This document shows, piece by piece, positions 10,655 to 26,612 of a stretch of DNA of 64,000 nucleotides. Source of the stretch: Salinicola halimionae (GTDB taxonomy: Bacteria > Pseudomonadota > Gammaproteobacteria > Pseudomonadales > Halomonadaceae); contig NZ_PZJQ01000002.1 in NCBI RefSeq assembly GCF_003206065.1, positions 1-64,000 on the forward strand. Direction: 5' to 3'. Numbering within the stretch: position 1 is the first letter of the stretch; the number at the start of each line of letters is the position of its first letter. Position numbers and translations under genes: made by a program. The notes under the pieces were generated by a model, which had not been told where the DNA came from, did not search any database, and was given only the letters and a program-made list of their open reading frames with translations.

Positions 10655-11557
10655 ATGACTGCGCCTCTCTCGGCAACGCCTGATTATGTCGGCCGCTTCG
10701 CTCCCACACCCTCGGGGCCCTTGCATCTGGGTTCGCTGGTGGCAGCGGTGGGAAGCTGGCTGGACGCTCGAGCCGCTGGCGGCCAATGGTTGCTGCGATT
10801 CGAGGATATCGACCCGCCCCGCTGCCCACCCGGTACCGACGACACCATCCGTCGCCAACTGGAAGCCTTCGGCCTGGCATGGGATGGAGAGATTCGCTAT
10901 CAGAGCGAGCGCGGGGAAGCCTATCAGACAGCGCTGGATCGGCTGCTCGCCGTTGGCATGGCTTATCCCTGTGGCTGTTCGCGTCGAGAATGGCAGCAAT
11001 ATGGCTATTATCCGGGCTGGTGTCGCCATGGGTCGCGATACCCTGAACGGCCGCAAGCCTGGCGCTTGCGAACTGACAAAGGCGTTCAACCCGTAACGTG
11101 GCAGGACCGCCTGTTCGGCCACCAGAGCCTCGACCCGACCCGGCAGGGCGACGTCGTCATCAAACGCAAGGAGGGGCTCTGGGCTTATCAGTTGGCCGTG
11201 GTGGTCGATGATGCGGACCAGAACGTCACCGACATCGTGCGTGGTTTCGATCTGCTCGATAACACGCCATGGCAGCGCCAGCTCCAGACCGCCCTCGGCT
11301 ATTCCGAACCCCGCTATCTACATCTGCCACTGATTCTGGGCGACGACGGTCAGAAGCTCTCCAAACAGAATCTCGCGACCGCCATTCCCGATGATGCCGA
11401 CCTGGCTCGACCACTGCTTCATCAAGCGCTGCAGCTGCTCGATCAGCATCCCCCTATGACGCTACGCGAGGCGCCGGTGGCCGATCAGCTCGCTCACGCC
11501 TGCCAAAACTGGTCGCCGCAGGCGTTGAGTGCAACGCCGGGGCGAACTCGAAGCTGA
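10655..11557 (+). CDS. gluQ: Glutamyl-Q tRNA(Asp) synthetase
   Basis: Attaches glutamate to the queuosine base of tRNA-Asp. The protein of 300 residues is a shortened glutamyl-tRNA synthetase without the anticodon-binding domain. It has [15 protein letters not shown] at the N terminus (HIGH-type motif), the zinc-binding CGCSRREW and GWCRHG cysteines at about 100-125, and the KLSKQN signature at about 229. GGAG lies 7 bases before the ATG. In pseudomonads the next genes are cbrA-cbrB; here the next 1 kb has no protein gene. Confidence 0.95.
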
Positions 11558-11920
11558 AGCCAGACGAGGATACCTGTTCCCTCCTGTTCGGCTACCCGTT
11601 CCATCCCTCGTGCGACGCTTTGGCCAGGCAACAGTATCTTCTCGTCGTCCCCCAAAAAATCGAAGCTGAAGTAGCCCGCGCCCCCTTCCTTTGGCCGGTT
11701 GTAACCCTCTCCTACATTCGGTTGAAGACTATTGTCTAAGCGCAACCTGCGCCATTTTGCGTCACCCTGTCGCCATCGCATGAGGGTGCACCACAATCAA
11801 GCATAAGCGGTCTAAGGTGCCCCGTCATGAATCAGCGAGATCGACCGTGTCCGGAGCCAGTTGAAACTTGGCATGGAAAGAATTCAGCAAGATATTGTTT
11901 TATAAGAAAAGAATATGGAG
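11558..11920. other. Non-coding stretch upstream of the CrcZ-like RNA
   Basis: I find no convincing gene. Short frames exist on both strands, including a 100-codon one on the minus strand that overlaps gluQ, but none shows a recognisable motif or a ribosome binding site. This is where cbrA and cbrB stand in pseudomonads. A CACCCT/AGGGTG dyad (11763-11768 and 11783-11788) lies about 150 bp before the sigma-54 promoter, a plausible distance for an activator site. Confidence 0.6.
11763..11788. promoter_or_regulatory. Possible upstream activator dyad
   Basis: CACCCT and AGGGTG form an inverted repeat with 14 bp between arms (20 bp centre to centre), about 135-160 bp before the sigma-54 element. 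Enhancer-binding proteins use such sites; the match to a known CbrB site was not checked. Confidence 0.25.
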
Positions 11921-11936
11921 TGGCACGGCAAGTGCA
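11921..11936 (+). promoter_or_regulatory. Sigma-54 (-24/-12) promoter of the CrcZ-like RNA
   Basis: TGGCACGGCAAGTGCA matches the sigma-54 consensus TGGCACG-N4-TTGCA with one mismatch. The invariant GG and GC are 12 bp apart, as required. The predicted transcription start is near 11947. In Pseudomonas, crcZ is driven by RpoN and the activator CbrB. Confidence 0.8.
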
Positions 11937-11946
11937 ATCAGTAAGA

Positions 11947-12437
11947 TAAGAAAAACAACAGCGGGTGCCGATCAATCCCAACGACAATAATCGTTGATCG
12001 GATGTCCCCAAGTGCCGACGACAATGACAACATGGCACTCAACCTAAAAGGCAGATCGTCAACGGCCCAACAATAACAAACTTGGCCGAAGGCACGAATG
12101 AGAGCATGAACAACAACAATCGTTCTCGGGCCTAAGCAAAATCAGGACGCGACGCTCTTCATCAGCGGGGCAACAAGAACAAGCCTCCCCGTGGTCCGAA
12201 GACTTCTCGGAACAACGACAAGAACCGAGAAAGGGCATTGCCTGTCGTGGTTGGATTATTGTTTTGAATACGAGGTGGTCGCTACGCAGCAAGGCTGACA
12301 ATGACAAGCCGAAGGCTGCAGTAGCGTTTAGCGACTGTGTTACGTATTCAAGGCGATGCGCCATCACGAACAAGAAAAAGCGGCATGGACGTTGCGAAGT
12401 ATCTTTAGAGGGGAGGCCCACCGGGTCTCCCCTTTTA
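11947..12437 (+). ncRNA. crcZ: CrcZ-like Hfq/Crc-sequestering small RNA
   Basis: RNA of about 490 nt, bounded by a sigma-54 promoter and an intrinsic terminator. It sits directly before pcnB, the same neighbour as Pseudomonas crcZ. It has nine A-rich CA motifs: 11951-11960, 11980-11990, 12018-12032, 12069-12080, 12109-12120 (AACAACAACAAT), 12172-12183, 12211-12224, 12298-12308 and 12369-12380. Motifs 2, 3, 4, 6, 7 and 8 lie in loops of perfect stems: 11968-11975/11994-12001, 12011-12016/12034-12039, 12063-12067/12084-12088, 12166-12170/12187-12191, 12204-12210/12225-12231, and a long composite stem 12266-12284/12329-12349. CrcZ binds Hfq and Crc and so relieves catabolite repression. Neither its sequence similarity nor its expression was tested. 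It is longer than the roughly 400-nt CrcZ of P. aeruginosa. Confidence 0.78.
12410..12436 (+). terminator. Intrinsic terminator of the CrcZ-like RNA
   Basis: Ten-base-pair stem GGGGAGGCCC / GGGTCTCCCC with a three-base loop, followed by TTTT at 12433-12436. Confidence 0.9.
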
Positions 12438-12614: not shown

Positions 12615-14048
12615 ATGTTCAAAGGATTTTCCCGTTTTCTCCAGCGTCCCGGTGAGCGTTTGAAGACATTCTTCAATCCGGAATCTGCACAGGCTGGCGA
12701 AGACGCTACGCCCACTCGACAAGTCCTGCCTCGCGACGAACACAACGTCTCGCGCCAGAATCTCAGCGAAAGCGCACTCAAGGTCCTGTACCGGTTGAAC
12801 AGTGCCGGCTATGACGCCTATCTGGTCGGCGGTTGCATTCGCGACTCGCTGCTGGGGAATCGGCCCAAGGACTTCGATGTCGCTACCAACGCCACGCCCG
12901 ATGAAGTCCGCCAGCTGTTCCGCAACTCTCGCATCATCGGCCGTCGCTTTCGCATCGTTCACGTCCGCTTCGGGCGCGAGGTGATCGAGGTCACGACTTT
13001 TCGTGGACGTCATGGTGAAGAACACACCGGCAATTTGAGCCAGCAGTCGGACGACGGTTTGCTGCTTCGCGACAACGTCTGGGGCAGCGTCGAGGAAGAC
13101 GCGATTCGTCGCGACTTCACCGTCAACGCGCTCTACTACAGCGTTACCGACTTCGCCATTCACGATTGGACCGGCGGGCTCCAGGATCTCGATGACCGTG
13201 TACTGCGGATGATCGGCGATCCGGAAACCCGTTATCGCGAAGACCCGGTTCGCATGCTGCGCGCCGCACGTTTCGCCGCCAAGCTCGACTTCCGGATCGC
13301 CGAAGACACCGAAGCGCCGATCCGCGAGCTGGCGCCGCTCCTTTTGCAGATTCCGCCGGCCAGGCTGTTCGAGGAAGTCCTCAAGCTGTTCCTCTCCGGT
13401 CACGCCCTGCAAAGCTTTCGCGTGCTTCGCGAACGCGGACTGTTTGCCATGCTGTTTCCCGAGAGCGACGAAGCCCTCAACGAGCAACCGTGGGCGGTCA
13501 AGCTCGTCGAGCAGGCGCTGGCCAATACCGACGCGCGAATCGCTCAGGATCGTCCGGTGACGCCCGCTTTCCTGTTTGGCGCCCTGTTATGGCCTTGCGT
13601 ACAGCAGCGCACCCCTCAGATCGCGCACGAACAGGACCTGCCCGAAATTCCGGCGCAACAGGCGGCGGCACAGCAGGTCATTAGTCGCCAGTTGCAGCAC
13701 ACCTCGATTCCCAAGCGCTTCAGCATGCCGATGCGTGATATCTGGGACCTGCAGCAGCAGTTACCCCGTCGTCGCGGTCGCCGGGTTTTCCAGACGCTCG
13801 AGCACCCGCGCTTCCGCGCGGCGTACGATTTCCTGCTGCTGCGAGAGGAATCCGGTGAATTGACGCCGGGCCTCGGCGCGTGGTGGACCGAATTTCAGAA
13901 AGCCGACGAGGACGGCCAGCGTCAGCTGATGGCGGATGCCGATAGCGGCCCTCCTGCCGACGGCGCGAGCGGCAAGCCACGTCGTCGACGCCCGCGCAAA
14001 CGTCGGCGTCCGACCAACAAGCCGACGCCGCCGACGCTGAATGACTGA
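12615..14048 (+). CDS. pcnB: Poly(A) polymerase I
   Basis: Adds 3' poly(A) tails that promote RNA decay. The protein of 477 residues belongs to the tRNA nucleotidyltransferase superfamily: head-domain motif YLVGGCIRDSLLG (about 73-85), catalytic DFDVATNATP, FTVNALYY, then IGDPETRYREDPVRMLRAARF. The last 25 or so residues are a very basic RRRRPRKRRR tail, common in this family. There is no strong ribosome binding site before the ATG. The last 8 bp overlap folK. The gene is the first of a pcnB-folK-panB-panC-coaA run. Confidence 0.96.
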   Translation: MFKGFSRFLQRPGERLKTFFNPESAQAGEDATPTRQVLPRDEHNVSRQNLSESALKVLYRLNSAGYDAYLVGGCIRDSLLGNRPKDFDVATNATPDEVRQLFRNSRIIGRRFRIVHVRFGREVIEVTTFRGRHGEEHTGNLSQQSDDGLLLRDNVWGSVEEDAIRRDFTVNALYYSVTDFAIHDWTGGLQDLDDRVLRMIGDPETRYREDPVRMLRAARFAAKLDFRIAEDTEAPIRELAPLLLQIPPARLFEEVLKLFLSGHALQSFRVLRERGLFAMLFPESDEALNEQPWAVKLVEQALANTDARIAQDRPVTPAFLFGALLWPCVQQRTPQIAHEQDLPEIPAQQAAAQQVISRQLQHTSIPKRFSMPMRDIWDLQQQLPRRRGRRVFQTLEHPRFRAAYDFLLLREESGELTPGLGAWWTEFQKADEDGQRQLMADADSGPPADGASGKPRRRRPRKRRRPTNKPTPPTLND

Positions 14049-26408: not shown

Positions 26409-26612
26409 AGCTGCTTATCCACTCTCGATTAATTTAATTTCGCTTAAATACCCAATGACAGAATATAAATCACTTATGGCCGAAATTAGCAAATCTTAAT
26501 GTCATAAAAAGCCTTTAATTTGCAACTCAACCTTTCCAATTTCACTTTAGGATAGATCGGGTTCCTTTCGAGACAACTCCACGACGACGCCACAACAACA
26601 ACCGGATCCGCC
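26409..26612. promoter_or_regulatory. AT-rich divergent control region of acdR and acdS
   Basis: These 204 bp are clearly more AT-rich than their surroundings. They contain a partial Lrp-box-like stretch TAGCAAATCTTAATG (26487-26501) and, just before acdS, the CA motif AACAACAAC (26594-26602), described separately. Confidence 0.5.
26592..26602 (+). promoter_or_regulatory. Hfq/Crc-type CA motif in the acdS leader
   Basis: ACAACAACAAC ends 10 bases before the acdS ATG, where a ribosome binding site would lie. Crc with Hfq binds AANAANAA motifs near start codons to block translation of catabolic mRNAs in pseudomonads, and CrcZ-type RNA carries the same motif. Confidence 0.5.

Follow-up and report, generated by a model that had tools for sequence, protein, structure and literature searches.

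A CrcZ-like RNA upstream of pcnB in Salinicola, a predicted sigma-54-dependent Hfq/Crc decoy at a locus without cbrAB

Introduction

A predicted RNA of ~490 nt, located directly upstream of pcnB in Salinicola halimionae, is the positional counterpart of CrcZ and very likely works like it. We analyzed the whole 64,000-nucleotide stretch of DNA in which it lies (positions 1 to 64,000 of contig NZ_PZJQ01000002.1, assembly GCF_003206065.1; hereafter the window), together with related genomes, and put at about 0.8 the probability that the RNA is a sigma-54-dependent decoy for Hfq/Crc that acts as CrcZ does, with possible control by nitrogen. We infer that the RNA is transcribed from a sigma-54 promoter, and that its nine A-R-N repeats, six of them in hairpin loops, would occupy the distal face of Hfq together with Crc. 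With Hfq occupied, catabolic mRNAs would be freed from Hfq/Crc repression. In Pseudomonas, passages of one report describe CbrB as the activator of crcZ, acting at TGTTAC and GTAACA subsites (PMC6296734). In Salinicola and a second genus of the family (g2), the cbrA and cbrB genes are absent from the locus, and the promoter would probably be driven by another sigma-54 activator.

Results

A predicted RNA with hairpin-displayed repeats precedes pcnB

The RNA is encoded on the forward strand between gluQ (10655..11557) and the poly(A) polymerase gene pcnB (12615..14048), both also on the forward strand, in the order dksA, gluQ, RNA, pcnB, folK, panB, panC. The identities of gluQ and pcnB were checked, and the other four genes are presumably those named. 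The position directly upstream of pcnB is that of CrcZ (RF01675), with gluQ rather than cbrB as the upstream neighbor. The initial annotation of this DNA had described, just before pcnB, a sigma-54 promoter with one mismatch, nine AAN-type motifs, six of them in loops of perfect stems, and a 10-bp terminator; each of these features is borne out below, with the terminator somewhat longer than described.

The putative sigma-54 promoter, TGGCACGGCAAGTGC (11921..11935, forward strand), has one mismatch to TGGCACN5TTGC. It was assigned by sequence alone, and the match by itself is not significant (nine in the window against 4.8 expected, with 7 of 100 shuffles reaching nine). Its TGGCAC...GTGC elements are invariant in all 17 aligned Salinicola loci, and RpoN is encoded in 18/18 Salinicola genomes. 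With its start placed from the promoter and its end from the terminator, the RNA would span 11947..12435, and its predicted fold is more stable than those of all 100 shuffled sequences (z = -4.8). The intrinsic terminator (12407..12435) has 13 predicted pairs, the outer three of which involve its T run, which is short (four). A simple terminator scan of the window did not list this element, which the fold prediction shows, and the sigma-54 promoter type falls outside the coverage of the promoter and terminator scan. A tRNA scan found no tRNA.

Within 11947-12435 there are nine (RAN)3RA motifs, against a mean of 0.55 and a maximum of 3 in 500 dinucleotide shuffles, and no 490-nt stretch sampled every 49 nt on either strand has a higher count. 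The strict motif AANAANAA occurs five times (shuffle mean 0.59; 0/500 shuffles reach five). Perfect stems of 9, 7, 5, 7, 6, and 7 bp, with G-U pairs allowed, enclose six of the nine motifs in their loops; in shuffled RNA, 27% of control placements have a stem of at least 5 bp and 3.7% one of at least 7 bp. Motif 1, AAGAAAAACAA (11948..11958), has no surrounding stem. The loops that follow present AACGACAATAA in hairpin H2 (11968..12001, 9 bp), GACGACAATGACAA in H3 (12011..12039, 7 bp), AACAATAACAA in H4 (12063..12088, 5 bp), AACAACAACAA in H5 (12099..12128, 7 bp), AACAAGAACAA in H6 (12165..12192, 6 bp), and AACAACGACAAGAA in H7 (12204..12231, 7 bp). A stem of at least 5 bp is found in 17/17 species for H2, in 16/17 each for H3, H5, and H7, and in 14/17 for H6; the H4 stem is poorly conserved (8/16), and one further species lacks the H4 motif. 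Motif 8 (12297-12307) lies in the variable apical loop of the long hairpin of a 3′ domain, and motif 9 (12369-12379) on the 3′ side of the same hairpin. By eye, the CA motif of H4, AACAATAA (12069-12076), has its complement in a U-rich strand, TTATTGTT (12256-12263), within the 3′ domain, a pairing that could form a possible internal lock in the RNA.

CbrAB and its boxes are absent from the locus

The closest relative of CbrB in the S. halimionae genome (G000) appears to be a different regulator. Searched with CbrB from family f21, which its CrcZ scores lead us to presume is the Pseudomonadaceae, this genome gave a best match of 46% identity (E 1e-89); a genome of family f20 gave 66% (E 1e-186). 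Because the best match follows a kinase gene with a glutamine synthetase gene upstream, we take it to be NtrC, the names of NtrC and the kinase being assigned from gene position. At an ortholog threshold of E 1e-125, CbrB is present in 302/390 genomes of the order, from 117/142 genera, and in 13/18 genomes within the family. The five family genomes without it are three from g2 and two from Salinicola (G000 and G004), the latter being the two of 18 Salinicola genomes in which CbrB was sought genome-wide. No convincing CbrA ortholog was found in the 18 Salinicola genomes, where the best matches are to the transporter part (35-37% identity) or, in one genome, to most of the length (32%), whereas CbrA from f20, f2, and f35 matches over its full length at 53-63%.

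Gene order at the locus follows the same division. The gluQ gene lies directly before the RNA in 17/18 Salinicola loci, the remaining locus ending at a contig edge, and in 10/10 g2 loci; neither cbrA nor cbrB is present in any of these 18 and 10 loci. In all 17 fetched loci from the rest of the family, cbrB (51-65% identical) directly precedes the RNA, and the end of cbrA is also visible in 11 of them. In L144, L146, L148, and L160, the only gene separating gluQ from the RNA is cbrB, cbrA being absent from this interval, a possible intermediate before the absence of both genes. Elsewhere, cbrA adjoins cbrB in several families (L068, L070, L071, L144-L158, L160, and L161 examined). In one assembly (G017:C1; L018, L019, L159) the pcnB and rpoN matches are in pieces, possibly owing to sequencing errors.

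The sites through which CbrB would act are missing as well. Among family loci with CbrB, 16/16 of those scored have GTTAC at 123-135 nt and GGTAACA at 81-82 nt from the -24 element, a count made without L006 (promoter unanchored) and L160 (deviant promoter; boxes seen by eye). These boxes occur in 0/17 Salinicola sequences, 16 of which have sufficient length for a judgment on both; L009 extends only 108 nt upstream. GTTACC near 124 is found in 0/10 g2 loci, and two of the ten keep GGTAAC at 79, perhaps a relic of the CbrB box. The sensor pair and its boxes are thus absent together, yet the promoter and the RNA remain.

Putative NtrC-type sites lie upstream of the promoter

GCACCA is the half-site of NtrC. 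In the window, an NtrC-type site, GCACCACAATCAAGC (11788..11802, forward strand), matches at 9/12 positions with a degenerate second half and lies 133 nt upstream of the -24 element, and a weak site, GCCCCGTCATGAATC (11819..11833; 7/12), lies 102 nt upstream, so that the two are 31 nt apart. GCACCA recurs at 132-134 nt from -24 in 16/17 Salinicola sequences, the other being too short, and GCCCC at 101-103 nt in many of them. All 4096 half-sites, arranged symmetrically about a 3-nt spacer, were ranked in loci with CbrB (13/16), Salinicola (9/17), and g2 (8/10), near duplicates having mostly been thinned and L156 and L161, from one genus with sites about ten bases further upstream, also left out. 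GCACCA-N3-TGGTGC, noticed before the ranking, came first of 4096 for the three groups combined, both as a single site and as a tandem at 31-32 nt, a distance picked after seeing the data. As a single site it ranked 24th in the loci with CbrB, first (tied) in Salinicola, and second in g2, and as a pair it ranked second in each group. Upstream of glnA in ten Salinicola genomes, GCACCA again ranked first of 4096 when the spacer was 3 nt, and for none of five other spacers, and these sites are about 31 nt apart. The RNA locus thus resembles NtrC-controlled glnA promoters in its tandem GCACCA-N3-TGGTGC-type sites ~31 nt apart, and differs from glnA in that its sites are weaker and its product is an RNA.

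From these sites, we give NtrC roughly an even chance of being the sigma-54 activator of the Salinicola RNA. Somewhat less probable, and still a strong contender, is that the RNA is a decoy as proposed and another sigma-54 activator drives it, for example the regulator at G000:C7:478996 or C7:847817. The genome offers such candidates: at least three long stretches match the activator domain of CbrB, two of them being sigma-54 response regulators by Pfam. In single Salinicola sequences, moreover, the NtrC-type site is no better than in shuffles (25-184 of 300 as good). A genome-wide search for the NtrC pattern with up to two mismatches was uninformative, giving 98 matches where the reversed control gave 151. 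A conserved block of about TTTTGCGNCACCCTGTCGCCATNGC at ~-165 (11755-11778, forward strand), which shows a few changes in 16 Salinicola rows and is not seen in seven relatives with CbrB aligned beside them, is not close to an NtrC site. It surrounds an imperfect dyad, GCGTCACCCTGTCGC (11759..11773; 8/12 to GCACCA-N3-TGGTGC), which is not significant alone and may be a further activator site. What counts against another activator is the first rank of the NtrC half-site over the combined groups and its agreement with the glnA sites, including their spacing.

Stems, motifs, and a 3′ domain are conserved

The initial annotation had named a lack of conserved stems and motifs among relatives as grounds for refuting its reading; both are conserved, with compensatory change. 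An alignment of 17 Salinicola loci with intact pcnB, from 18 genomes, contains the promoter, the 5′ motif, the hairpin array, the 3′ domain, and the terminator. The arms around the six looped motifs differ in sequence and still pair, forming a stem of at least 5 bp in 87/101 hairpin-by-species cases against 18-37% with shuffled flanks. RNAalifold identified ten pairs changed on both sides, distributed over two motif hairpins, a stem around one of these, the 3′ domain, and the terminator.

The most strongly conserved part is the 3′ domain (12234..12396, forward strand), a long hairpin with a variable apical loop. At E 0.001 or better, a covariance model of it built from 13 Salinicola sequences (R1) matches 18/18 Salinicola genomes and, of the genomes sampled across the family, 197/201, from 21/24 genera; the four without a match are G415, G416, G420, and G435. 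Over 25 sequences, seven of them from Salinicola, 13 pairs of the domain show changes on both sides, where shuffles give 5.8 (0/500 as high), in an alignment that was fitted to its own model and so leans towards the structure.

This conservation raises the question of whether the CA-motif array is secondary, with the main function residing in the 3′ domain through another partner or a processed 3′ sRNA. The sequence of the domain is indeed far more conserved than the hairpins, with 12/15 pairs of its central helix invariant over the 25 sequences and its near-universal occurrence in the family. We nevertheless consider this reading unlikely. The motifs and their display persist in 35 RNAs of the family despite the turnover of stem sequences, a sign of selection on the motifs. 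In Pseudomonas, CrcZ acts through its motifs, and the f21 CrcZ sequences likewise share, as judged by eye, a conserved middle part.

A leader of pcnB or a decaying, non-working crcZ remnant might be suspected from the location directly before pcnB and from the missing activator known from Pseudomonas, and is very improbable: the terminator, in which both partners of some pairs differ among relatives, separates the RNA from pcnB, and promoter, motifs, and 3′ domain conserved in 17 Salinicola loci (the 3′ domain in 18/18) are not expected under decay. We rejected this explanation on those grounds, as we did, with near certainty, a small protein encoded by the RNA or its complement, for which an open frame is present (for example one of 120 codons on the minus strand, 12059-12421), since the distance between two conserved blocks varies from 162 to 202 nt in relatives through indels that are often not multiples of three, and base changes follow the pairing.

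The RNA is CrcZ-like rather than CrcZ

The predicted decoy shares with CrcZ its place before pcnB, a sigma-54 promoter, A-R-N repeats, a terminator, and a host with Crc and Hfq. It differs in length (~490 nt against a model of 398 positions) and in having nine motifs, compared with five or six in f21, with more of them in perfect hairpin loops. The f21 CrcZ sequences (14 of 15 loci used) carry 5-6 motifs, 0-2 of them within stems of at least 5 bp, and 35 RNAs of the window's family carry 5-9, 2-6 of them within such stems. By this count, the earlier suggestion that the stem-loop display is distinct from that of the Pseudomonas RNA holds.

Rfam at the gathering score finds no match anywhere in the window, and at E up to 10 only weak matches, including CrcZ (RF01675) at 11.7 bits and E 1.5 over the partial interval 12101-12197, far from the cut-off of 95 bits. 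The same model has no match over the S. halimionae genome, in a search in which the control genomes gave no match either, and matches 71/390 genomes of the order, in 19 of them over the cut-off; at E 0.001 or better it matches 28/142 sampled genera. Relatives of CrcZ therefore exist outside f21, and the RNA is not a lone outlier. Because the Rfam cut-off is failed and CbrB and its boxes are missing, we call the Salinicola RNA CrcZ-like rather than CrcZ.

Its 3′ domain is also unlinked to CrcZ by covariance models. Neither R1, searched over 42 sources, nor a family-wide model of the 3′ domain (R2), searched over 34, gave a link to f21 CrcZ, and outside the family they match only L061, at E 9.1 and 0.73, respectively. 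A model of the f20 core (R3), searched over 45 sources, matched f8, f2, and f35 sequences (E 3e-5 to 9e-3) and neither f21 nor Halomonadaceae cores; its match in the window at 11193 (E 4) was off target and was discarded. The chain of sequence similarity from the window's core to Pseudomonas CrcZ is thus incomplete. In a two-strand profile test of 33 sequences, two from f20 were equaled by 0/300 and 1/300 shuffles, one from f40 by 3/300, and those from f21 by 5-62 of 300, which is weak after 33 tests. A common origin with CrcZ is instead suggested by gene order, promoter, motifs, and the CbrB boxes of relatives.

CrcZ-like RNAs in f2, f8, f20, f35, f40, and f44 were recognized from the Rfam CrcZ match, with promoter and motifs seen by eye, and pcnB lies within the fetched stretch in 17/20 CrcZ-like loci, one of them from the window's own family. 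In f2, f20, and f35, where three loci were read further upstream, cbrA and cbrB precede the RNA, unlike in Salinicola. By eye, L057, L058, L059, L062, and L063 contain short CrcZ-like units that have two or three motifs each and a terminator of the form GACCTGG[AG]TGGGGA, and L057, L058, and L059 have a second similar unit in the same gap. CrcY and CrcX are further CbrB-driven decoys with the same motif logic, encoded elsewhere in the genome, and unlike them the Salinicola RNA sits at the crcZ position. Both are named for Pseudomonas in passages of a published report (PMC8871633).

Crc, Hfq, and candidate targets

The proposed partners of the RNA are encoded in the genome. A Crc ortholog (G000:C4:130503), next to a gene that we take to be pyrE-like, has Crc (4jg3) as its best PDB match and is the reciprocal best match of an f21 protein among PF03372 proteins of three genomes (49% identity). 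NCBIfam gave no Crc family and names both this protein and its f21 counterpart exodeoxyribonuclease III; judged by eye, the Salinicola protein appears, like Crc, to lack nuclease catalytic residues at the usual places. Hfq is also encoded (L101, G000:C6:597018). Read by eye from the DNA, it has phenylalanine where the proteins of E. coli and Pseudomonas have the distal-face tyrosine 25, a replacement with which stacking could be kept.

AANAANAA motifs also lie near start codons at window positions 26594, 34362, 53637, and 57959, in genes that we take to encode an ACC-deaminase, a peptide-binding protein, a transporter, and a glycerol kinase, and which are candidate Hfq/Crc targets. In all, 14 motif positions fall outside the RNA, seven of them near possible starts of six frames of at least 100 codons, a number counted without a control.

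Discussion

The distribution of genes and sites within the family can be read as a history. Taking gluQ-cbrA-cbrB-RNA-pcnB as the ancestral order, we infer that the direction of change was loss, which at the locus looks stepwise: cbrA-cbrB-RNA, cbrB-RNA without adjoining cbrA, and the RNA alone. The decoy would then have been rewired, with CbrAB and its boxes lost in Salinicola and g2 and an older, family-wide NtrC input kept, a proposal to which we give slightly less than even odds. With NtrC as its activator, the decoy would signal nitrogen rather than carbon limitation.

The occurrence of CbrB in 302/390 genomes of the order contrasts with the printed view, in passages of two reports, that CbrAB is exclusive to the Pseudomonadaceae (PMC8871633; PMC6296734), one of which adds that no other family had been described as having the cbrA-cbrB-crcZ arrangement. 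Transcripts of cbrA and cbrB have been reported from open-ocean microcosms, their owners not being named in the passages available (PMC5073097). Among the papers listed from the mostly non-subscription literature on CrcZ, on Hfq/Crc and catabolite repression, and on CbrAB in Halomonas, and on NtrC with CrcZ, no title or abstract beginning describes the RNA, and no paper was listed for CrcZ in Marinobacter. Taken together, CbrB across the order and a CrcZ-like RNA in 197/201 genomes of the family would imply a far greater age for the Hfq/Crc decoy circuit than has been assumed.

Halomonadaceae have biotechnological uses, which makes a master switch of their substrate use of practical interest. 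The family is also a natural experiment, with a decoy that persists where the sensor is missing. If the rewiring is true, Hfq/Crc repression in these bacteria would be lifted by nitrogen limitation instead of carbon limitation.
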